From: Candidatus Woesearchaeota archaeon
GTDB lineage: Archaea; Nanobdellota; Nanobdellia; Woesearchaeales; GW2011-AR9
Assembly (NCBI GenBank): GCA_018664115.1
Contig: JABJOX010000037.1
Span: 1-47,774 of the forward strand
Reading direction: 5' to 3'
Length of the DNA stretch: 47,774 nucleotides
Below, piece by piece: positions 3,294-46,080 of this stretch. The notes under the pieces were generated by a model. It had not been told where the DNA came from, searched no databases, and saw nothing but the letters and a program-made list of their open reading frames with translations. The position numbers and the translations under genes are program-made. Position 1 is the first letter of the stretch; every line of letters begins with the position of its first letter.

Positions 3294-3391
3294 TTTAAGA
3301 TTAATTAAAAGAGAGATTTATAAATTTATGGTAAATAAAAGCAAAAGTGTCAATCTAAAACTTTTTAAACAAGCACCACATTCTCTTTATT

Positions 3392-5206
3392 ATGGATTAT
3401 CAAAAAATAGGTTTGAAGTGTGGTATCGAAATACATCAACAACTAGAAGGAAAGAAACTATTCTGTAATTGTCCAACTTTACTAAGAGATGATAAGCCTG
3501 ATTTTGAACTAAAAAGAAAACTGCGAGCTTCTGCCGGTGAATCCGGAAAAATTGATATAGCAGCAAGACAAGAACAAATTAGAAACAAAACTTTTGTTTA
3601 TCAAGGTTATTCAGACACTACTTGTTTGGTTGAAACTGATTCCGAACCACCACATGCTTTGAACCAAAATTCTCTTTATACAACTTTACAATTATCTAAA
3701 TTAGTAAACGCAAATGTTTCTCCAGTTGTCCAAGTGATGCGGAAAACTGTTGTTGACGGTTCTAATACCAGTGGATTTCAACGTACAGCTTTAATTGCCA
3801 GAAATGGAGAAGTTGAAACTTCAGAGGGAATAGTTAGAATTGACAACATTTCCTTAGAAGAAGATGCTTGTAAAATTGTTTCCGAAACTGAAACTGAAAA
3901 AATCTACAAATTAGATCGATTAGGAATCCCTTTAATTGAAATTGGTACTGCACCAGACATAAAGACTCCAGAACAAGCTCAAGAAACAGCTAAAAAATTA
4001 GGAATGTTACTTCGTTCATTACCCAATGTAAAACGAGGTTTAGGAACAATTCGACAAGATGTTAATGTTTCCATTAAAGGAGGAAATAGAATAGAAGCTA
4101 AAGGCGCTCAAGACCTCAAAATGATTCCAACTTTAGTAAATTTAGAAATCAAACGACAACAAGAATTGTTAAAAATTAAAGAAGAACTGAAAAAAATAAA
4201 ATTAAACGAATTTAAGATTTATGACATCACGAAATTATTATCTAAATCTGAAGCAAAAGTAATTGCATCTGCAATTAAAATCAAAGGAAAAGTTCTAGCA
4301 ATTAAACTAAATGGTTTCTCCGGGTTAATTGGTAGAGAATTGCAACCCAATTATCGAGTTGGCAGTGAATTTTCTGGCCGAGCCAAAATTAAAGCTGGCG
4401 TGAAAGGAATCTTTCATTCCGACGAATTACCAAATTATGGGATTACTAAAGATGAAGTTGATTTAATCAATAAAGAACTAAAATGTAAAGATAAAGATGC
4501 TTTCGTTTTAGTAGCTGCTTTAAAAGATAAATGTAAATTAGCTTTATCTGCTGTTTATGAACGAGCAGAAGAATTATTTTTAAGAGTGCCAAAAGAAGTT
4601 CGTAAAGCAGAAGCAAACGGATTAACAACTTTTATGCGACCAATGCCCGGTTCCGCTCGTATGTATCCAGAAACCGATGTACCTTTGGTCAAACCAGATC
4701 CACATGCTGTTGAATTGCCGGAATTGATTTCAGAAAGAGCTGAGCGATATCAAAAGAAATTAAGTTTAAACTCAGATATGGCCAATCATGTTGCTAAATC
4801 AAATTATTCAGAGTTGTTTGAAGAATTGGTTAAAAAATATCCTAAATTCAAACCTGCTTTTATTGTTGACACTTTAATTTCGATGCCGATTGAAATTAAA
4901 AAGAAATATCAGTTAGATGCAAGTAAATTATCTGATGATAATTATCGTGATTTGTTCAAATATTTGCATGAAGATAAAATCCATAAAGATATTGTTATTG
5001 ATGTTTTGATTGATATGATTAAAAATAAGTTTGACTTGCAGAATTATGAATCTCTTTCTACTGAAGATGTTCATGAAACTATTAAAGATATAGTTTCTAA
5101 GAATAAAGATGCTCCCTTCGGCGCTTTAATGGGTCAATGTATGAAAGCTCTGGCAGGGAAAGTTTCTGGGAAAATCATTAGTGAAGAATTAAAGAAACTA
5201 GTCTAA
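3392..5206 (+). CDS. gatE: Glutamyl-tRNA(Gln) amidotransferase subunit E
   Basis: CGIEIHQQLEGKKLFCNCP, RLGIPLIEIGTAPDI, GLGTIRQDVNVSI, MRPMPGSARMYPETDVP; 604 aa with the GatE-specific insertion. Confidence 0.96.
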   Translation: MDYQKIGLKCGIEIHQQLEGKKLFCNCPTLLRDDKPDFELKRKLRASAGESGKIDIAARQEQIRNKTFVYQGYSDTTCLVETDSEPPHALNQNSLYTTLQLSKLVNANVSPVVQVMRKTVVDGSNTSGFQRTALIARNGEVETSEGIVRIDNISLEEDACKIVSETETEKIYKLDRLGIPLIEIGTAPDIKTPEQAQETAKKLGMLLRSLPNVKRGLGTIRQDVNVSIKGGNRIEAKGAQDLKMIPTLVNLEIKRQQELLKIKEELKKIKLNEFKIYDITKLLSKSEAKVIASAIKIKGKVLAIKLNGFSGLIGRELQPNYRVGSEFSGRAKIKAGVKGIFHSDELPNYGITKDEVDLINKELKCKDKDAFVLVAALKDKCKLALSAVYERAEELFLRVPKEVRKAEANGLTTFMRPMPGSARMYPETDVPLVKPDPHAVELPELISERAERYQKKLSLNSDMANHVAKSNYSELFEELVKKYPKFKPAFIVDTLISMPIEIKKKYQLDASKLSDDNYRDLFKYLHEDKIHKDIVIDVLIDMIKNKFDLQNYESLSTEDVHETIKDIVSKNKDAPFGALMGQCMKALAGKVSGKIISEELKKLV

Positions 5207-5324
5207 GTTACACAATTTTAAATATTTAATTATTCTAAGTTCATAAACCAGACGCCACTCAAATCAACTTCAAAGTAATAAATGACACAAAAGATTTATA
5301 AAAATTCTATTAACATTTAATACT

Positions 5325-5705
5325 ATGACAATAAGAAGAACATTAGGAACCATTATATTGGCTTCAGCATTAGCTTTAGGTGGAACAGGATGTTCTGATG
5401 ATGGTCAAAATAAATCTGCGCAAGAATATGCACAAAGTGCAGAAAATAGATCTATTGTCCATAGAGTTAATGCAGATTACAATAAAGCACAATATTTACA
5501 ATTAATAGAAATTGTTGAGAATAATAATCAGATGTTAGAAACAAAAGGAACTTCAGTTGATATCTCAGACTATTTGAATAAAGCACAAGAATATGCAGAA
5601 AATGCAGAAAATACATCTTTTGTTCATAGAGTTAATGCGGATTACAATAGAGCACAATATGAACTGAATCAAGCAATTCTAAAGCAACAAGAAGCATTAA
5701 AGTAA
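5325..5705 (+). CDS. Putative lipoprotein with two tandem ~26-aa repeats
   Basis: Signal peptide with LGGTGC lipobox; repeats AQEYAQSAENRSIVHRVNADYNKAQY and AQEYAENAENTSFVHRVNADYNRAQY. Confidence 0.75.
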   Translation: MTIRRTLGTIILASALALGGTGCSDDGQNKSAQEYAQSAENRSIVHRVNADYNKAQYLQLIEIVENNNQMLETKGTSVDISDYLNKAQEYAENAENTSFVHRVNADYNRAQYELNQAILKQQEALK

Positions 5706-5843
5706 ATCTTACGGTTTTTATCTTTTTAGCCCGAATTCTAAATTAGACATAACAAGGTTTATATGAAATTATTTACAAAAAATTATTAGAATATTTACCA
5801 TCCTTTGTTGTTACCACTGGTTTGTGACAAAATAAGCGAAACA

Positions 5844-5853
5844 TTTATAAATA
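5844..5853 (+). promoter_or_regulatory. TATA box of the hydrolase operon
   Basis: tttataaata about 21-30 nt upstream of ATG 5874, consistent with a leaderless archaeal transcript. Confidence 0.6.
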
Positions 5854-5873
5854 AGCTTAGTTCTTAGTATATT

Positions 5874-7175
5874 ATGCTTGAAAGACTGATAGAAGATACT
5901 AAAATAGGTGATTTCGTCCTAGATTTACATCCTTCTGCTAATCAATTATTTGAAGAAAATGGTGCTTTAGAAACAGCATGCTTAACCCCTTATAAAAAAT
6001 TAGATGAAAAAGTTACAGATATATTAAAAAATGAAAGTTCTCAATATAAACAAGCAGCTTGGAAAACTCTAAATGGAACAGTTTCTGCACTTAACCATTT
6101 AGGATATGCTGGTTTAGAAACTACTTGTAGATTATCAGAATCAGCAGTTAGAGGTACTGGAAAATTAGCTAATTTAGGTTACCAAAAAGCTGCTGATCAA
6201 TGGACTCAAGTTGAAGATTTTGGACAAAAAGTTGTTAATCAATACAAACATTTGAAAAAGAAAGTCCCTCGTTCTGTTAAAAATTTCTTACAGAGAATTA
6301 AAGATCCGTTAGTTGTTGGTTTATCAGTTGCAGCCATGGCTTTAAGTTATGGTGGAATTAAAGGATGTAATGAAGAACCGGAAGCTGAAATTGAAATTGT
6401 TGATTATCAAAATCCAACTAATAGTGTTGCAGACTTATTTACAGTTCCAGATCAAGAAAACGTTGAACCAGAAAATCCCGAAGATTATTTTACTATAGAA
6501 GAAGTAAACAGTAGACCAAATTCATTTGGAAGAACTAGACAAAGACAAACTAGAGAAAGAAGACAAGTAAGACAAACTAGAACAGCCCCAGAAGTAAATC
6601 TACCTCAATGTTCAAACAATAATTCAAGAAGCGAATATCAAAATGTTGCTAATGCAGCTCAATCTAGAGCAAGTTCTCAAGGAAGTAATTATGCTAAAAT
6701 AAATGCACCAACTAGTCCATTAGAAGGATTAACTGGAAATACCGAACCAGGAAGAACAAAAATTAATTGGTTAAAAAACAGAAATAAATGTAACCAGTTT
6801 GTTGGAGACTCTTTAGTGCAAGCTGGATATAAAGTTCCTACTCATCAAATGAGAGATGGAAGTTTACATTATAAAGAAATCGAACAATTTCCTCATGAAA
6901 ATAATTATTTTACAAAAGTGACTAATTTTTGTGACATTAAACCAGGACAAATTATAGTTATTGACCATCCAACTAGTGGAGAAAGTACTGCTCACGGAGA
7001 AATTATTCATAATGTAAATCATCAAACTGGAACAATTTTAAGTTTCGGTGCCCATGCTGATGGCGCTTATAAAAAAAGAATTGATGTTCTTAAACACGCA
7101 AATTTCGATGGAATTTTAGGATGTTGGCAATCAGGTATGGATAACATTTATGTTTTAGAACCTAAAGGAGATTAA
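5874..7175 (+). CDS. Membrane-anchored CHAP/NlpC-like Cys-His amidase (putative peptidoglycan hydrolase)
   Basis: Internal TM (VVGLSVAAMALSYGGIKG), Ser/Arg-rich linker, C-terminal NKCNQFVGDSLVQAG (Cys) ... DIKPGQIIVI ... STAHGEIIHNV (His). Confidence 0.7.
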   Translation: MLERLIEDTKIGDFVLDLHPSANQLFEENGALETACLTPYKKLDEKVTDILKNESSQYKQAAWKTLNGTVSALNHLGYAGLETTCRLSESAVRGTGKLANLGYQKAADQWTQVEDFGQKVVNQYKHLKKKVPRSVKNFLQRIKDPLVVGLSVAAMALSYGGIKGCNEEPEAEIEIVDYQNPTNSVADLFTVPDQENVEPENPEDYFTIEEVNSRPNSFGRTRQRQTRERRQVRQTRTAPEVNLPQCSNNNSRSEYQNVANAAQSRASSQGSNYAKINAPTSPLEGLTGNTEPGRTKINWLKNRNKCNQFVGDSLVQAGYKVPTHQMRDGSLHYKEIEQFPHENNYFTKVTNFCDIKPGQIIVIDHPTSGESTAHGEIIHNVNHQTGTILSFGAHADGAYKKRIDVLKHANFDGILGCWQSGMDNIYVLEPKGD

Positions 7176-7183
7176 AAATAAAA

Positions 7184-8506
7184 ATGGATCATAAAAAACA
7201 ATTAGAAGAAGCAATAGCCTGGACAAAGCAAGCAGGAACTTGGGTAAATGAAAATCAACCTAGTTTCGCTAAGTTTGCAGATCCAATTATGCTTAAAGCT
7301 TCTGCTAATTTAGGTTATATTAGTGGCGTGCAAGATTTTATTGAAGCAACCCAAGCCCCTCCAGTAATTCAAACAGCTTTATACGCTGCTGCCGGTGCAG
7401 GAATGGTTAAATGGAACGAAATTGTTGTTTCTGAAATTAATCGAGGATTGAAAGAATATAATTCTAGACAAACTTCTGGAAATGGTTTCAATTGGACAAA
7501 AAGTTTGTTGTTAGCCGGAACTGCAAGTTTAGCAATTTCTAACGCAACAGAAGATTCTAATTCCCAAGGAATTCCTTTCTCTGAAGAAAATGTTGAATAT
7601 ATAACTAAAGATTTCATTCAAGAACCAGTAAATGAAACTCTAAGAAACATTATTGTAGAACCTGAATTATTAGAAGAATCAGATGATTTAGAAGATTTTG
7701 AATCTAACTTTCATGAATTTAATATACCAAATTTATCAGACATTATTCAAGAAAAGTCACCACAAATAGATTATCAAGATATTCAAAGATTAAAAGAAAA
7801 ATTAGAATTAACTGCTCAAAAGCAATCATTAATTGATAATCCATTACATCCAAAAGCACAACCACATTATGATCGATTATCTGGAAGAGATTATCATCGG
7901 ATGGTTGAAAAGATTGAAAGAACTGAAGAAAATGGTGATTTGTTAAGAGCAGCTGCAAATAAATATAATATTGATCCTGAAATGATGTTCGCTTTAACTA
8001 TTAAAGAAAGTGATGGTAAAGTAAGAGCAAGAAGTAAACCCGGAGCTCGTGGATTAATGCAAATTATGCCTCGAACAGGCAAATATATTGCTGAACTAAT
8101 GGGAGATCAATTTGTAGAATTAACTGGAAGAAGTACTTTCAGAACAAACGATTTGTTTGATCCAGAAATCAATGTTGAAATGGGTGCATTTTATTTGAGA
8201 TTTATCCATGACACTTATGGAGAAAGAATTTTGAAGAAACGTGGACAGAGAGATAATGGATATAGCGAATGGACAGATGATGATGTTTGGGATTTCACAA
8301 TGGCTTGTTATAACCGTGGTCCAAGTGGGATGACTACAAATATGATGAATGCTCGTGCCGATACTTTCTGGGATTTAGAACAAGGAGAAACTACTGAAGA
8401 AGCCCGTAGATATGTTCCTGGAATTCGAGCTATTGAAAAAGTTTATGTTGAATATTTAATAAAAGAAGCTAAAAAAAGTAATGAAGTTGCTAGGGTAATC
8501 AATTAA
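7184..8506 (+). CDS. Membrane-anchored lytic transglycosylase-like protein (SLT domain)
   Basis: Internal TM, then AAANKYNIDPEMMFALTIKESDGKVRARSKPGARGLMQIMPRTG...DPEINVEMGAFYLRFI, classic SLT motifs including the catalytic Glu of xES. Confidence 0.88.
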   Translation: MDHKKQLEEAIAWTKQAGTWVNENQPSFAKFADPIMLKASANLGYISGVQDFIEATQAPPVIQTALYAAAGAGMVKWNEIVVSEINRGLKEYNSRQTSGNGFNWTKSLLLAGTASLAISNATEDSNSQGIPFSEENVEYITKDFIQEPVNETLRNIIVEPELLEESDDLEDFESNFHEFNIPNLSDIIQEKSPQIDYQDIQRLKEKLELTAQKQSLIDNPLHPKAQPHYDRLSGRDYHRMVEKIERTEENGDLLRAAANKYNIDPEMMFALTIKESDGKVRARSKPGARGLMQIMPRTGKYIAELMGDQFVELTGRSTFRTNDLFDPEINVEMGAFYLRFIHDTYGERILKKRGQRDNGYSEWTDDDVWDFTMACYNRGPSGMTTNMMNARADTFWDLEQGETTEEARRYVPGIRAIEKVYVEYLIKEAKKSNEVARVIN

Positions 8507-8507
8507 A

Positions 8508-8903
8508 ATGAAAGCAAGATTAGAAGAATTGGCATTACAAATCGAACAAGAGATCTTAGAAACTGGTACACTTGTTGTTAAGGGAATAGAAGTTAGAAAA
8601 AGCAATTCTGGTAACAACCCTTATACTGGACTATGTCAAACTGCAGTTGGGAAATTAAAAGAACTGGCACCAGATTTAGAAATGAGATATGTTGCTTTTC
8701 AAATAAATAATGGTAAACACCAAATGGTTAAAGATACCCATGCAATTGCAGAAGTGATTACTGCTGAAGGTAATTTTATTGTTGACCCTACTATTAAACA
8801 ATATTTGCCAGAAGCAAAAATGGTTTATGCCCCTGGTGAAGAATATCCATTAATCGCAGTTCGAGGAACAATGAAAGAACTGCCTTTGCAAAATTACCAA
8901 TAA
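8508..8903 (+). CDS. Small papain/transglutaminase-like Cys-His-Asp protein
   Basis: GLCQTAV ... DTHAIAEVI ... FIVDPTIKQY: ordered Cys-His-Asp candidate triad; starts 1 nt after the upstream stop. Confidence 0.6.
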   Translation: MKARLEELALQIEQEILETGTLVVKGIEVRKSNSGNNPYTGLCQTAVGKLKELAPDLEMRYVAFQINNGKHQMVKDTHAIAEVITAEGNFIVDPTIKQYLPEAKMVYAPGEEYPLIAVRGTMKELPLQNYQ

Positions 8904-8956
8904 CTTTATAAAAACAATTGAGAAATAAATAAAACATTATTAGGAGGAAATATAAA

Positions 8957-9493
8957 ATGACTGAAATTAAGAAAGGAGATAAAGTAAAAGTAGAATATAC
9001 AGGTAAATTAGAAGATGGTTCTGTATTTGATAGTTCTGAAGGTAAAGCACCTTTATGTTTCGAAGTAGGAGCACAACAAGTAATTCCTGGCTTTGATAAA
9101 GCTGTAGAAGGAATGAAAAAAGATGAAGAGAAAGAATTCACTCTTAAAGTTGACGAAGCTTATGGCCCAATTAGAGCAGAAATGGTCCAAGAAATTCCTC
9201 GAGACAAATTACCAAAAGATCCTGAACCTAAAGAAGGTATGATGTTAATGATGCAAGCACCTACTGGACAACAAATTCCTGCAAAAATCACAAAAGTTGA
9301 AGATGATAAAGTTACAATTGATATCAATCATCCACTTGCTGGAAAAGATTTAACTTTTAGTGTAAAAGTTGTTGGTGTAAATGATCCAGAAGAAGCTAAA
9401 TCAGAAGAAACTAAAGAAGGTTCTGATACAGAGAAGAAAGATGACGATGGTTGTAAACCAGACGATTGTTCTTCATGTTGCGGATGCGAGTAA
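8957..9493 (+). CDS. FKBP-type peptidyl-prolyl isomerase with Cys-rich C-terminal tail
   Basis: KKGDKVKVEYTGKLEDGSVFDSSEG...FEVGAQQVIPGFDKAVEGMKKDEEKEFTL; tail CKPDDCSSCCGCE; SD taggaggaa upstream. Confidence 0.95.
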   Translation: MTEIKKGDKVKVEYTGKLEDGSVFDSSEGKAPLCFEVGAQQVIPGFDKAVEGMKKDEEKEFTLKVDEAYGPIRAEMVQEIPRDKLPKDPEPKEGMMLMMQAPTGQQIPAKITKVEDDKVTIDINHPLAGKDLTFSVKVVGVNDPEEAKSEETKEGSDTEKKDDDGCKPDDCSSCCGCE

Positions 9494-9535
9494 ATTTTTT
9501 TTAATTTATTTTTTTTAATATTTTTATTTCTAAAA

Positions 9536-10153
9536 ATGGAACCAAAAGTTATTAGTAAACCAGGACTCATAAAAATCACAGATCAAGAATCCGGCTATAT
9601 TTTGTGGATGGATGATAAACATACTAGTATTAGAATCCCCTCCCCTATATATGATAAGAATAGTATTGCTATAACTTCAAGACCAATAATTGAGTATAGA
9701 ATAGAACAACCCTTTTTTCCAGATCCAAAAAAACAATATTGTGAAATTGGTCCTGGATTAGGAGAATATATTCCTTTCTTAGTAAAACAATTTGAAAAAT
9801 TTCCTAATGCTGTTAAACCAATTGCCATTGATTTGGTAGATTATGATAATCTTATAGAAATAATGAATTATGCTGTTGATGAAGGTTTCACTACCTCAGA
9901 ATCTGTTGAAAGAGAAATCAACACATTAATAGAAAGGGCAAAAATAATTACTGATCCCGAAAAAGTAAGATTAATCAATAAACCTTTAGGACAAGCATTA
10001 AAAGACCACCCAGAATTATTAGGAACTGTTGATGATGTTGTTGACAATATGGCTGCAGTATTCCATAGTGACATTTCAGAAGGAATTAAAATGGAAAGAA
10101 TGGAAAGATTAAGAGATTTTTTATTAAAACCAGAATTAATCGCTTATAGATAA
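9536..10153 (+). CDS. Hypothetical protein, possible methyltransferase-like fold
   Basis: YCEIGPGLGEYIPFL resembles SAM-binding motif I. Confidence 0.55.
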   Translation: MEPKVISKPGLIKITDQESGYILWMDDKHTSIRIPSPIYDKNSIAITSRPIIEYRIEQPFFPDPKKQYCEIGPGLGEYIPFLVKQFEKFPNAVKPIAIDLVDYDNLIEIMNYAVDEGFTTSESVEREINTLIERAKIITDPEKVRLINKPLGQALKDHPELLGTVDDVVDNMAAVFHSDISEGIKMERMERLRDFLLKPELIAYR

Positions 10154-10190: not shown

Positions 10191-10556
10191 ATGAAACAAG
10201 TTTCCAAATCTCTTAGAGTCTGGTTTAAGATCCATTTCATCGTAGATTTCTTAGTAGCAATTCCATTAATCTTCTTTACTAAATGGACATTAACATTGTT
10301 TGGATTTCCATTAGAAAATTTAATTTTCGCCCGTTTAATTGGCGCAGCATTAATTGGGATTGGTGGAACTTCATATTTCTGTAAGAAAAAAGAACATTTC
10401 CAAATCATGTTAATTCTAAAAATCTTTTGGAGTCTAACTGCAATCCTCGCTTTAATCTGGGGAATAGTTGAAACTGAAATCTTATCTTTATGGTTATTCT
10501 TAATTATTTTTGTAATCTTTTCTGGAGTTTGGCAGTACTATTGGTTTAAGAAATGA
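10191..10556 (+). CDS. Small integral membrane protein (about 4 TM)
   Basis: Strongly hydrophobic 121-aa ORF, overlaps next gene by 4 nt. Confidence 0.7.
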   Translation: MKQVSKSLRVWFKIHFIVDFLVAIPLIFFTKWTLTLFGFPLENLIFARLIGAALIGIGGTSYFCKKKEHFQIMLILKIFWSLTAILALIWGIVETEILSLWLFLIIFVIFSGVWQYYWFKK

Positions 10557-11119
10557 AAAAAACATTACTAATAATCTTCTGTATCTTTCTTCCTATCTTC
10601 TTATTATTGTTCTCATACAAAATAGTATTAGGAATTTCCAATCTAACAGAAAATCAACAAGAAACCATCAACTTCCTAGAAAATAAACAAGAATTAAATT
10701 TAAATTACACTACAAATGAAATATCCCATTTAGAAGATGTTAAGAAAGTAATAAGTTTTATTGATTACTTATTCTACTTAAGTTTAATAATCATAACTCT
10801 AATCACAACTCATTACAAAAGAAACAAGAAACAATTACAAAAACTAATCAAATATGGAGGAATAACAACTTTAGTTTCCATTGGATTAATTTTACTCTTC
10901 TCTTTATTCGCCTTCAATTCCACATTCACAATCTTCCATAAAATCTTCTTCCCGCAAGGAAATTGGCTCTTCCCAACAAATTCGTTAATAATTCAAACCT
11001 TTCCAATAGATTTCTTTATTGGAATTAGTGTGAAGATGTTTATTCTAACAATAATCCTGGGAAGTATTTTTATATCATTAAGTTATTATCTAAAAAATGT
11101 TTATCGTAAGAGGAGTTAA
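10553..11119 (+). CDS. DUF1461/TIGR01906-like integral membrane protein
   Basis: NLNYTTNEISHLEDVKKVISFIDYLFYLSL pattern with multiple TMs. Confidence 0.6.
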   Translation: MKKTLLIIFCIFLPIFLLLFSYKIVLGISNLTENQQETINFLENKQELNLNYTTNEISHLEDVKKVISFIDYLFYLSLIIITLITTHYKRNKKQLQKLIKYGGITTLVSIGLILLFSLFAFNSTFTIFHKIFFPQGNWLFPTNSLIIQTFPIDFFIGISVKMFILTIILGSIFISLSYYLKNVYRKRS

Positions 11120-11312
11120 AGCCTGGATTGTAACCTTGATTGTCTTAGCAGTAATCGTAACAGCAATAGTTCTAGTATTTCAATTACTATTGTTCTTATT
11201 ACCGTTAATCTTAATTATCATTATCGTTAGTTACCTCTTTAGAATGCTCAACAAAGTTAAAAAAGAGGAACCACAAGATTATATTAATATTAAATACAAA
11301 GTAAAGAAATAA
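11097..11312 (+). CDS. Small membrane protein
   Basis: 71 aa, two hydrophobic segments, operon position. Confidence 0.6.
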   Translation: MFIVRGVKAWIVTLIVLAVIVTAIVLVFQLLLFLLPLILIIIIVSYLFRMLNKVKKEEPQDYINIKYKVKK

Positions 11313-11313
11313 C

Positions 11314-11970
11314 ATGAAACCTTTAATCTTAATCAACTTTAAAACGTACAAAGAATCTTACGGCAATAAAGCTTTAGAGCTAGCTAAAAAAATTGCTAAA
11401 GTTAAAAAGAATAAATATCAAATCGCTGTCGCACCATCATTACTAACAATTAAAGAAATTGCTCAAAAAACAAACTTAACAGTTTTCTCACAACATACAG
11501 ACTTAGCAGATTTAGGTGCACATACAGGCAGAATTCCCGCTGATGAATTAAAAGCAATTGGTGTCAAAAGTACAATCTTAAATCATTCAGAAAGAAAAAT
11601 CCCATTAAAATTTCTTAAAGAGATTGTAGAACTGTGTAAAAATAAAAAGATAGTTACTGTTGTTTGTGCTTCTACTATTTCAGAGATTAAAAAAATCGCT
11701 GTTTTCCATCCAAATTACATTGCTTATGAACCAAAAGAGTTCATTGGTGGAAATATTTCTGTAACCGAAGCTAAACCGGAAATCATTGTTCGAGCAGTAG
11801 AAGCAGTAAAATACATTTCTCCAAAAACAAAAGTTCTTTGTGGAGCAGGAATCCATTCTAAAGAAGATTTAGGTCACGCTTTATTACTAGGAACAGAAGG
11901 CGTCTTGATTGGTCATGCAGTTAGTAAAGCAAAAGATCCGAAGAAGTTTCTAGAAGAAATGTTAATTTAA
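11314..11970 (+). CDS. tpiA: Triosephosphate isomerase (archaeal type)
   Basis: LINFKTYKESYG...VFSQHTDLADLGAHTGRIPADELKAIGVKSTILNHSERK...AYEPKEFIGG...VLCGAGIHSKED. Confidence 0.96.
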   Translation: MKPLILINFKTYKESYGNKALELAKKIAKVKKNKYQIAVAPSLLTIKEIAQKTNLTVFSQHTDLADLGAHTGRIPADELKAIGVKSTILNHSERKIPLKFLKEIVELCKNKKIVTVVCASTISEIKKIAVFHPNYIAYEPKEFIGGNISVTEAKPEIIVRAVEAVKYISPKTKVLCGAGIHSKEDLGHALLLGTEGVLIGHAVSKAKDPKKFLEEMLI

Positions 11971-33940: not shown

Positions 33941-34381
33941 TCATTCCAACTTAATTGTATAAGTCGGCCCTTTCTTTCCATCTTTATTTGCCCAAGCAAC
34001 TTCTACTTTATCATCTGCTAAAGCCTCTAAACTAACATAGTCATGGTACAACATATCGCGCTTATCAAAACGCGAATCGTATTGATCCCTAGTTCTGATT
34101 TCATTAGTGGATATTTTTTTAATTTCTCCTTCTGGACCAAAATGATATAATGCTACCCACTCACTTGTTCCAACTCCTCCTTTAAATTCGTTCCAGTAAC
34201 GTGATTCCCATTTAGCTGCTACTACTTTATGTTCACCAACCCCCAAATACTCTACGTCAGTTGGATGTTCCCGGTAATGCTTTCCTCCCCTTTCCGAAAC
34301 ACGTTTCAGTATTTTTTCAACTCCCGGCAAATGTTCTTCCGCTTCAGTAATTTTTTCTTCTATAGTTTTTTCAGTTTTCAT
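33941..34381 (-). CDS. Member 1 of a three-copy paralogous family
   Basis: EEKITEAEEHLPGV...HKVVAAKWESRYWNE...VSLEALADDKVEVAWANKDGKKGPTYTIKLE; GGAGG SD. Confidence 0.75.
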   Translation of the reverse strand: MKTEKTIEEKITEAEEHLPGVEKILKRVSERGGKHYREHPTDVEYLGVGEHKVVAAKWESRYWNEFKGGVGTSEWVALYHFGPEGEIKKISTNEIRTRDQYDSRFDKRDMLYHDYVSLEALADDKVEVAWANKDGKKGPTYTIKLE

Positions 34382-34959
34382 TTTTTACCTCCAAATTCTT
34401 CTTCCAAAAACGATTTCATTGTTTTATCAATAAGCTCCTGTTTAAACCCAATCAAATGTTGATACAATCCTGCAGCATAACTCAGATCAGAACAAGGACC
34501 ACCACCATTCAAATCAACTCCATAACGTTTGTTAAGATTTACAACCATTGTCGGAACTTTACCAGAATCTAATAATTCTTGTTCTAAAGGAGCATAACCT
34601 GCAATAGCTTCTTCTACAGTGGCGAAAGTAACTACTTCTTCAAAATCTGCAATTGGAAAACCAGGGCCATCATACCCAAAATCAATCTCTGAAGTTCTTG
34701 CATAAACTAAAACTTCAACATCATTCTCTGTAAATCTTTCTTCAAAATGATTAGGATTAAGATCCAATAAACACATCCCTAATTGTTGCCTTTCTTTTTC
34801 TTCATCAGAATGACAATCAAACAACAATCGAGAAGGGTCACTAAGTGAATATGCTGGTTTACTTTGTAAACTGGTATATTCTGGAACTCTTTCTGATTTT
34901 TGTTCTGGATCATCCCCTAATCCTAGCCCCTTACTAATTTTCATCTCTAATTTTTTCAT
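34378..34959 (-). CDS. Hypothetical protein
   Basis: 193-aa ORF; GGAGG SD; ATGA overlap with next gene. Confidence 0.7.
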   Translation of the reverse strand: MKKLEMKISKGLGLGDDPEQKSERVPEYTSLQSKPAYSLSDPSRLLFDCHSDEEKERQQLGMCLLDLNPNHFEERFTENDVEVLVYARTSEIDFGYDGPGFPIADFEEVVTFATVEEAIAGYAPLEQELLDSGKVPTMVVNLNKRYGVDLNGGGPCSDLSYAAGLYQHLIGFKQELIDKTMKSFLEEEFGGKK

Positions 34960-34977
34960 TTTTATTATTCCTCCATT

Positions 34978-35436
34978 TTATTTCAATTCAACAACATACG
35001 TAGGTCCTTTCGTTCCATCATGCTTAACCCAAGCAACTTCTACTTTATCATCAGCTAAAGCTTCTAAACCAACATAATGATATTTAAAAAGCAAATCAGC
35101 CCTATATTTTTGAGAGTCATATTGATCTCCGACTACTATTTTTTCTGGAACAATTTCCTTCAGTTCATTATCTTCACCAAAATAATGTAGGGTTACCCAT
35201 TCATTGATTCCAACCCCATCATGATAATCATTCCATTCACGAGATTTCCATTTAACTGCCACTACTTTATATTGTTCAGTTTCTAAAAATTCTAAATCTT
35301 CAGGATGACTCTTGCAATAGCGTCCCCAACTTACCCATCCACCTGGTTTGATTGTTTTATTGATTCCAGGAAGAAATGTTTCTGCTTCAGCAATCTTTTC
35401 ATCCATAGTTTTTTCAGTTTTCATTTTATTTTTCAT
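34978..35436 (-). CDS. Member 2 of the paralogous family
   Basis: DEKIAEAETFLPGI...YKVVAVKWKSREWNDYHDGVGINEWV...VGLEALADDKVEVAWVKHDGTKGPTYVVELK. Confidence 0.75.
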   Translation of the reverse strand: MKNKMKTEKTMDEKIAEAETFLPGINKTIKPGGWVSWGRYCKSHPEDLEFLETEQYKVVAVKWKSREWNDYHDGVGINEWVTLHYFGEDNELKEIVPEKIVVGDQYDSQKYRADLLFKYHYVGLEALADDKVEVAWVKHDGTKGPTYVVELK

Positions 35437-35815: not shown

Positions 35816-36475
35816 TTAAAGATCCACTCCTACGAATCCACCAATATCGTAACCAAATGATCCATCAGGTCCAAGTTCAGTCAAATTTGCAGCTGCTCCA
35901 ATGTGGTATTTCTCCATTAGTGTTGCTCCTAATCTTAATTTCTGAATACTGAACTGATGACCTTCTTTTCCAACACTAGTTAAATCTTCCAAACTCATCA
36001 GCAAATCAATTGATTCGCCTAACTTTGGAGTATAACTTAAACTTACAACAACTTCTCCATCTGGATGATCCATAGTTTTTACTGTCGCTAAAGCATACAC
36101 TGCAAGATCTCCAACTTTTCCAAAGTGTTGTAATCCCGCTCTTGGAATTACTCCCATCCCTGGTGCTGCTTGTACTTCTCCAACAACATCTAAACCACCA
36201 ACTAACTTGTAACTTAGATCTGCCAATCCAAAATAACTCACTTCACCTTCAGGAGTTGAAGTAGTCATTTGTCTGATGAACAATCCAGTTTTTTCAGCAA
36301 CTTCTGTTGATACTTTAGTATCTAAAGTTATTGACTGATGTCCAGCCATTAATTCAACTGAACCACCTGCTGTTGCTGGCGTTGGACTTAAGGCAATAGT
36401 TGCAGCCAATAATGCCGCCGTTGCTAAACTTTTAACACCACTTACTTTTTCAGTTAATTTTTCTTTAATTTTCAT
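35816..36475 (-). CDS. Exported beta-strand-rich protein, possible beta-barrel
   Basis: Signal peptide with ALSPTPATA|GG; many short amphipathic strands (VELMAGHQSITL, SYFGLADLSYKLV, LRLGATLMEKYHIGAAANL, YDIGGFVGVDL). Confidence 0.65.
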   Translation of the reverse strand: MKIKEKLTEKVSGVKSLATAALLAATIALSPTPATAGGSVELMAGHQSITLDTKVSTEVAEKTGLFIRQMTTSTPEGEVSYFGLADLSYKLVGGLDVVGEVQAAPGMGVIPRAGLQHFGKVGDLAVYALATVKTMDHPDGEVVVSLSYTPKLGESIDLLMSLEDLTSVGKEGHQFSIQKLRLGATLMEKYHIGAAANLTELGPDGSFGYDIGGFVGVDL

Positions 36476-44711: not shown

Positions 44712-45149
44712 TCATTTCAAATCAACAACATAAGATGGCCCTTTCTTCCCATCTTTACCAAGCCAAGCAACTTCTACTTGATCTTCTGCTAAAGACTCCA
44801 AACTAACATCAGGAAATTTGTCAATAAGATCTTTCCTATCTCTATGAAAATAACGTGGATCTTTAACTTTTATTTTCTCAGGAACCACTACTTTTAATTC
44901 CCCTTCATCACTAAGAAAATATGCTGCAACGAACTCCGCAATTTCAGATCTCCCATAAGCAAAACACTCTTGCTGCCATTTTGCTGCTACCACTTTATGT
45001 CCTCCAGTTTCTAAATATTCCACACCTGTAACATCAAATTGGTAACCACCACCAATAGTCTTAATAAATTCCGATTTCAATTTATCCCCAACTCCTGGCA
45101 AAAGTTCTTCTGCTTCAGCAATCTTTTCTTCTAATTTTTTTTCAGTCAT
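44712..45149 (-). CDS. Member 3 of the paralogous family
   Basis: EEKIAEAEELLPGV...VEYLETGGHKVVAAKW...VSLESLAEDQVEVAWLGKDGKKGPSYVVDLK. Confidence 0.75.
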   Translation of the reverse strand: MTEKKLEEKIAEAEELLPGVGDKLKSEFIKTIGGGYQFDVTGVEYLETGGHKVVAAKWQQECFAYGRSEIAEFVAAYFLSDEGELKVVVPEKIKVKDPRYFHRDRKDLIDKFPDVSLESLAEDQVEVAWLGKDGKKGPSYVVDLK

Positions 45150-45151
45150 TT

Positions 45152-46000
45152 TTATTTCACCTCCTTTTCTTTAATTAATTCAACAAAATCCATCCAAGCA
45201 TCAATCCACAATAATTTTTCAGGAGCATCCCTACGAGATTCAATTTTTGCTTCTAAATCATCAGCTACATCCAACTCATTGAATTTCTTAGCTAATGCAT
45301 CTGCAGCTTTTTGTCTAATAGCAAGTGGCACATGTCCAAAACTTCCTGAAGTATCATATAACATTAAATGTCCTTCTTCTACAGAACCTGTAATCCAACC
45401 CCCACCAAACACACCATAAAGTCCAATTTCTTGAGGCAAACTACGATGCTCATAATATGAAGGAGGATGAGCAATAAAATCTTCATCTTTATGGATTTTT
45501 TCGAGTAATCCTTTCAATCCTTCTTTCAGTTCAGGATGTTCTTCAATTATGTCTTCATGTTTGTAAGTCAAATAAGTTACAGTATCTCTCAAAGTAAGAG
45601 TTTTACCTAGTTCTTCTTTTTTCTGAATATAACCTTCCATTACATGTAAGACATAATCTCTTACGGATTCAATACCATGCTTTTCTTTAACACTAGTTCT
45701 GAAATCCTCAGAATCTAAATATGCAGCTTCAATAGTTTCAATAGAATCCCCATGATCAGAATGAGGAAAAGGAGTACTAGTTCTAAATCTATCACGAAGT
45801 TTAGAATCTTCGGCGATAGTAACATGTGCAGCATTCTCTTCTTTCGCTAAAATTAATCCAATTTCATCAAAATGTTCTCCATCCAAAAAAACAATATATT
45901 TTCTACGCGTTAATGGATCATCAATTGTTCCACCATACATACCTCTAACTTTAAGTAAGCCTTCTTCACTAACATTTATTTTATATTCTCTTGTCATTTT
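45152..46000 (-). CDS. Hypothetical protein (start likely MTREYKINV)
   Basis: About 282 aa, immediately upstream of paralog 3. Confidence 0.6.
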   Translation of the reverse strand, partial: KMTREYKINVSEEGLLKVRGMYGGTIDDPLTRRKYIVFLDGEHFDEIGLILAKEENAAHVTIAEDSKLRDRFRTSTPFPHSDHGDSIETIEAAYLDSEDFRTSVKEKHGIESVRDYVLHVMEGYIQKKEELGKTLTLRDTVTYLTYKHEDIIEEHPELKEGLKGLLEKIHKDEDFIAHPPSYYEHRSLPQEIGLYGVFGGGWITGSVEEGHLMLYDTSGSFGHVPLAIRQKAADALAKKFNELDVADDLEAKIESRRDAPEKLLWIDAWMDFVELIKEKEVK

Positions 46001-46080
46001 TATTCCCTCTTTTAACACCTACTTTGTAAGTGTTTGTTATGCAATAGTAGTGACTCAAGAACTATATAAAACTTTATTCT

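Follow-up and report, generated by a model that had tools for sequence, protein, structure and literature searches.

Proteins with an SLT domain from Woesearchaeota and Pacearchaeota, with possible action on bacteria, have been published (PMC8204110, PMC9723730; also PMC10936187), and Strock et al. 2025 (PMC12352652) described archaeal peptidoglycan hydrolases, of which two demonstrably killed a bacterium. The locus described here lies on a 47,774-nucleotide stretch of DNA from a Candidatus Woesearchaeota archaeon (the window) and comprises three consecutive genes encoding proteins designated P1, P2 and P3. P2 resembles the fam00969 and module 98 proteins (PMC8204110, PMC9723730) in its SLT/GH23 domain, its archaeal group and the bacterial-wall action proposed for them; these proteins are, however, described as large (up to 3,000 aa), whereas P2 has 440 aa, a CHAP-like partner and a fixed position in a slot following gatE. 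With the hydrolases of Strock et al. the cluster would share the encoding by archaea of enzymes for a polymer that they lack. The survey in PMC12352652 required a cell-wall-binding Pfam domain; P1 and P2 do not combine a catalytic and a cell-wall-binding domain in one protein as modular archaeal hydrolases do, no recognised murein- or cell-wall-binding domain being found in either by Pfam, NCBIfam and PHROGs scans. P1 would escape that survey because it is without a binding domain and no Pfam model covers its enzyme family. SLT proteins of archaea and archaeal hydrolases that kill bacteria are thus already known, while a modular anchor, a CHAP-like family and the slot as a hotspot look new, a limited literature search not aimed at these three having found nothing on them.

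The original prediction placed three consecutive genes behind a single TATA box, with gaps of 8 nt (P1/P2) and 1 nt (P2/P3), and the ORF list and the sequence agree with it. The features of the locus are:

3392-5206, + strand: gatE, at which the family-wide backbone flanking the cluster begins upstream
5325-5705, + strand: 126-aa lipoprotein-like ORF, located between gatE and P1; the two sister species lack it and it is a doubtful cluster member
5844-5853, + strand: TATA box TTTATAAATA, read in the sequence 30 nt before the P1 ATG
5874-7175, + strand: P1, 433 aa, N-terminal anchor module plus CHAP/NlpC-P60-like enzyme domain, under purifying selection
5874-6308, + strand: P1 N-terminal helical module (N-module), aa 1-145, predicted cytosolic, with the motif HPSxN...YxxxExxxRxxExxxR (A4/A10 profiles)
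6309-6365, + strand: P1 predicted signal-anchor helix, aa 146-164, net charge +7 before and -7 after (N-in/C-out)
6687-7166, + strand: CHAP/NlpC-P60-like domain of P1, aa 272-431, from an AF2 model, Foldseek and invariant Cys/His
6789-6791 and 6993-6995, + strand: codons of P1 Cys306 and His374, both invariant in 10 sequences
7184-8506, + strand: P2, SLT protein of 440 aa with a helical N-terminal half and an acidic linker
7940-8359, + strand: SLT domain of P2 (PF01464, GH23-type lytic transglycosylase), with the catalytic Glu275 codon at 8006-8008
8508-8903, + strand: P3, 131 aa, probable leaderless transglutaminase/papain-like C-H-D protein
8634-8636, 8739-8741 and 8784-8786, + strand: codons of the P3 triad C43, H78 and D93
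8957-9493, + strand: FKBP-type protein, bounding the variable slot downstream
10553-11970, + strand: 188-aa conserved membrane protein (putatively DUF1461-like) and tpiA, the remaining backbone

The element TTTATAAATA is kept at equal distance before the P1 or N-module gene in G002 and G001 (sister species) and in G021 (another genus); this conservation speaks for a genuine archaeal promoter, and the TATA-to-ATG spacing suggests a leaderless transcript of the cluster. The ORF at 5325-5705 carries the internal repeat AQEYAQSAEN..HRVNADYNKAQY twice and was seen only in the source genome; just 81 bases separate gatE from P1 in G002. The source genome (G000) is 1.12 Mb in size and 86.6% complete, and the contig also carries FtsZ, Orc1/Cdc6-like, rpS6e-like and Elp3-like genes besides gatE (names by inspection). 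Its nearest named relatives are the Woesearchaeota MAGs SI039_bin18, SI039_bin115 and SI047_bin3, and the contig is archaeal and belongs to the Woesearchaeota. Elsewhere in the window, 35816-36475 encodes a secreted 219-aa glycine- and beta-rich protein which by eye is like a small bacterial outer-membrane barrel and has no Pfam match; a similar-looking protein is encoded at 6608-7519 of locus L087. Paralogous small proteins (TEKTIEEKI.EAEE.LPG...) occur at three places within 33941-35436 and 44712-46018, two of them beside a second gene type, and no Pfam match was obtained for the two that were tested.

P2 is certainly a lytic transglycosylase by sequence, confirming the SLT assignment made earlier. 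It matches PF01464 with an E-value of 4.7e-20 (71.7 bits against a curated cut-off of 21.3), the motifs KESDG at 274 (containing E275), GLMQIMP at 290 and CYNRG at 375 are intact, and solved Slt70-type lytic transglycosylases align with aa 252-353. A membrane anchor is doubtful, since hydrophobicity analysis revealed at best a weak helix (maximum Kyte-Doolittle value 0.91) and neither a signal peptide nor a transmembrane helix could be recognised convincingly. The architecture said to be common to P1 and P2 consequently survives only in part: P1 has a clear signal-anchor helix at 146-164, but the P2 helix is weak and the N-terminal regions of the two proteins have no detectable homology (hhalign P 0.056), leaving common ancestry of these regions unsupported.

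The C-terminal domain of P1 was correctly recognized as CHAP/NlpC-like with Cys and His residues, although this is visible by fold comparison only. Profile and sequence searches with the domain gave no match in Pfam (including the CHAP and NLPC_P60 models), NCBIfam or PDB sequences, and one Myxococcota relative matched NLPC_P60 at E 0.023, below cut-off. An AF2 model of full-length P1 from 4 sequences had a pLDDT of 44 and gave meaningless fold matches, and the domain alone with 10 sequences was used instead (pLDDT 75, core 80-95). The Foldseek best match of this model was the phage phi812 hub CHAP domain 9eum (E 5e-4, prob 1.00), with further matches to the Ly7917 endolysin and, among viral models, to an NlpC/P60 endopeptidase (prob 1.00) and CHAP proteins. 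The model shows the papain-like alpha+beta fold of the CHAP/NlpC-P60 superfamily; top CHAP and NlpC/P60 matches had probabilities of 0.99-1.00 but TM-scores of only ~0.5, so that a CHAP/NlpC-P60-like fold is assigned with moderate strength. All 10 sequences have Cys306 and His374 unchanged, with H394 or D396 as candidates for the third polar residue. The predicted fold, with Cys at a helix start and His at a strand start, is like that of known members (9eum, Ly7917 endolysin, Gsp amidase), to which P1 nevertheless has no detectable sequence similarity, its nearest non-archaeal sequence relatives being from Myxococcota. Six of the 10 aligned sequences are Myxococcota/Deltaproteobacteria proteins, 45-51% identical, with an EF-hand-like N-terminus and, by inspection, no signal peptide; these are the nearest relatives outside archaea. 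Among 371 genomes sampled from the phylum the domain was present only in the focal genus and G136, and the family was likely transferred between Myxococcota and these archaea.

The N-terminal module of P1 was detected in 9/353 genomes of the order with a profile of aa 1-172, and a wider profile added G139 and G140, giving 11 proteins. All 11 have a net-basic stretch followed by a single hydrophobic helix and a net-acidic stretch, a pattern indicating a signal anchor with the C-terminus outside (type II topology); P1 is accordingly predicted to be anchored in the membrane with its enzyme domain facing outward. Four unrelated C-terminal domains stand behind the N-module in these 11 genomes: CHAP-like (G000, G001, G002 and G136), lysozyme-like by inspection (G026 and G294), caspase-like A (G021 and G061) and caspase-like B (G139 and G140), while the G293 protein ends after the helix. 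The lysozyme and caspase names are drawn from motifs only, Pfam being silent. In the other genomes, one N-module protein in two ends in a caspase-like domain or lacks an enzyme domain, so the module is not specific to murein. G026 and G061 are congeneric species that have the N-module gene at orthologous positions, between flanking proteins of 80-91% identity; the N-module proteins themselves are 61% identical over residues 1-190 and have nothing in common beyond, indicating a domain swap. These data suggest that lineages reuse the P1 anchor as a module while exchanging the enzyme part attached to it. The N-module gene has an M23 peptidase gene as a neighbour in G026 and a YkuD L,D-transpeptidase gene in G061. 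At locus L090, a second caspase-like protein (3381-4730) and a YkuD L,D-transpeptidase (4956-5669) adjoin an N-module gene where murA is absent, and at L088 a Tat-type M23 peptidase (4294-5211) adjoins one in an archaeon without murA.

P3 is probably a cytosolic transglutaminase/papain-like protein. It was originally described as a Cys-His-Asp protein, which holds for six relatives, in which C43, H78 and D93 are invariant, but not for three others, in which the triad is lost. No Pfam family model matched P3 and PDB sequence searches with P3 profiles returned nothing; one relative gave a sub-threshold match (0.0024) to a papain-like Pfam model, and the His-Asp half of P3 (that half only) aligned with a Transglut_core protein (hhalign P 7e-4). 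Relatives were present in 11/353 genomes, and eight of the nine in the focal family sit in the gatE slot. Nothing supports the action on murein first ascribed to P3, for which its genomic place is the sole tie. The slot of G063 contains a different transglutaminase-like C-H-D protein (L059, 8059-8976; weak PF01841 match, E 0.042), as if the slot also gathers P3-like enzymes.

Throughout the family the order gatE-[slot]-FKBP-membrane protein-tpiA is conserved as a backbone, with the cluster lying between gatE and the FKBP gene. When relatives were searched for conservation of the trio, a check that the original prediction had proposed, it was complete only in G000 and G002. P1 and P2 are followed in G001 by an unrelated 242-aa third gene, and in G021 an N-module protein with a caspase-like end is followed by an unrelated 277-aa protein and then P3. 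A slot profile derived exclusively from nine SLT domains encoded in the slot found further SLT/lysozyme-type ORFs, and a gene matching it was present in the slot of 15/32 genomes showing gatE and a downstream marker (G008 being counted via a second profile round). Slot proteins of other genera are ~25-35% identical to P2, compared with 62-68% for their GatE. On this comparison the conserved unit is the slot and its modules, not the trio. Unrelated orphan genes without a Pfam match occupy the third or a neighbouring position in relatives (L019 11531-12259, 242 aa; L020 10671-11813, 380 aa; L021 4340-5173, 277 aa). Slot proteins of G065 (L050, 1830-2564) and G064 (L063, 7542-8336) resemble another lysozyme type by inspection (AAGRYQFLHRTY) with no profile match.

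Between G000 and G001, dN/dS was 0.48 for P1 and 0.36 for P2, as against 0.09 for gatE, 0.08 for FKBP and 0.06 for tpiA (neighbours overall 0.06-0.16), and between G000 and G002 the values for the cluster genes were 0.50, 0.11 and 0.14. All three genes are therefore under purifying selection in the latter comparison, which argues that the ORFs are not chance, and evolution of P1 and P2 is accelerated but constrained, the CHAP-like part being the most constrained part of P1. Comparison of 3392-10153 of the window with 5739-13007 of L020 showed a synonymous divergence from G002 of 0.31 in gatE but of only 0.04-0.12 across the cluster and FKBP. The gene after FKBP is 99.7-100% identical to that of G002; together these values point to recent recombination between sister lineages.

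On balance we favour, with some reserve, the interpretation that the cluster provides surface-displayed archaeal enzymes cutting the murein of bacterial neighbours. P1 would span the membrane with a single helix, its helical module inside and a CHAP/NlpC-P60-like thiol hydrolase outside cutting murein peptides, and P2 would be an SLT-type transglycosylase, exported or loosely anchored, cutting glycan strands; P3 would be a cytosolic C-H-D accessory protein. Fast evolution of the gatE slot and replacement of the P1 enzyme part from one lineage to another are what changing targets would be expected to bring about. murA was missing in 48/49 family genomes (14/14 controls positive), the sole match, in G036, being below cut-off; own murein is thus unlikely and bacterial murein would be the natural substrate. 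A search of nine genomes for a contractile sheath gene was negative, and a contractile injection system was rejected as the exporter. From sequence, which does not separate killing, attachment and feeding, we infer that the enzymes are exported, act on murein, target bacteria and bring a benefit through predation, attachment or feeding. A murein-acting device directed at bacteria, as first proposed, accords with the archaeal origin, the glycan- and peptide-side enzyme kinds, the retained catalytic residues, the predicted outward orientation of P1 and the lack of murA; against it, the trio is no unit, P3 is unlinked and the P2 anchor is doubtful. As a tentative extension, a constant anchor may have had enzymes (murein peptidase, lysozyme-like, caspase-like) grafted onto it by recombination, to be deployed on contact against bacteria, with domains partly shared with Myxococcota.

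An archaeon with little biosynthesis could equally use these enzymes to loosen or digest the murein of dead or lysing bacteria as food. Such scavenging is in keeping with a reduced 1.1 Mb genome and with the proposal of murein as an amino-acid source for Pacearchaeota (PMC11537232), yet we regard it as unlikely, fast evolution and domain exchange fitting changing antagonistic targets better, though not uniquely. Lower still in probability is remodelling of the archaeon's own envelope, in which a glycoprotein or polymer of the archaeal surface would be the substrate of the SLT and CHAP-like domains during growth or division. The stable genomic position beside housekeeping genes and the presence of SLT domains (PF01464) in 177/338 genomes of the order, about half, could be explained in this way, but the other half or so of the order is without SLT and slot contents differ between close genera. 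A further point against envelope remodelling is that SLT enzymes are not known to have an archaeal substrate. It is highly improbable that the genes are entry or exit lysins of an integrated virus, plasmid or conjugative element: the P2 SLT domain does match PHROG endolysin and tail-lysin profiles and variable genes in a single slot look like cargo, but no relatives of the CHAP-like domain were found in 50,697 phage records, 72,556 plasmid records or IMG/VR, none of the N-module were found in IMG/VR, and no viral genes were noticed in the flanks. A virus or plasmid origin was rejected on this absence and on the constant position of the slot across genera. Bacterial contamination of the assembly, which the original prediction had named as a threat to its reading and which SLT and CHAP enzymes, typical of bacteria, might bring to mind, is refuted by the conserved archaeal neighbourhood, with gatE, rpS6e, Orc1/Cdc6 and other archaeal-type genes on the same contig and the same gene order in independent MAGs, including G001 on a 311,756-base contig, and its probability is negligible.

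Returning to surface-displayed enzymes acting on bacterial neighbours, the N-module proteins are like bacterial polymorphic toxins in having a constant N-terminus with four exchanged C-terminal domains, one swap being at an orthologous locus, but differ in that there is no known delivery system and the module resembles a simple membrane anchor; inspection of the cluster and N-module neighbourhoods recognised no immunity genes. Exchange of enzyme domains behind a single anchor would be an archaeal counterpart to these toxins. The CHAP-like family, absent from Pfam, is common to archaea and Myxococcota, and the slot after gatE is a genomic address that holds candidate wall-cutting enzymes in about half of the family genomes showing the backbone. 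These findings bear on whether DPANN archaea live on, or off, bacteria.
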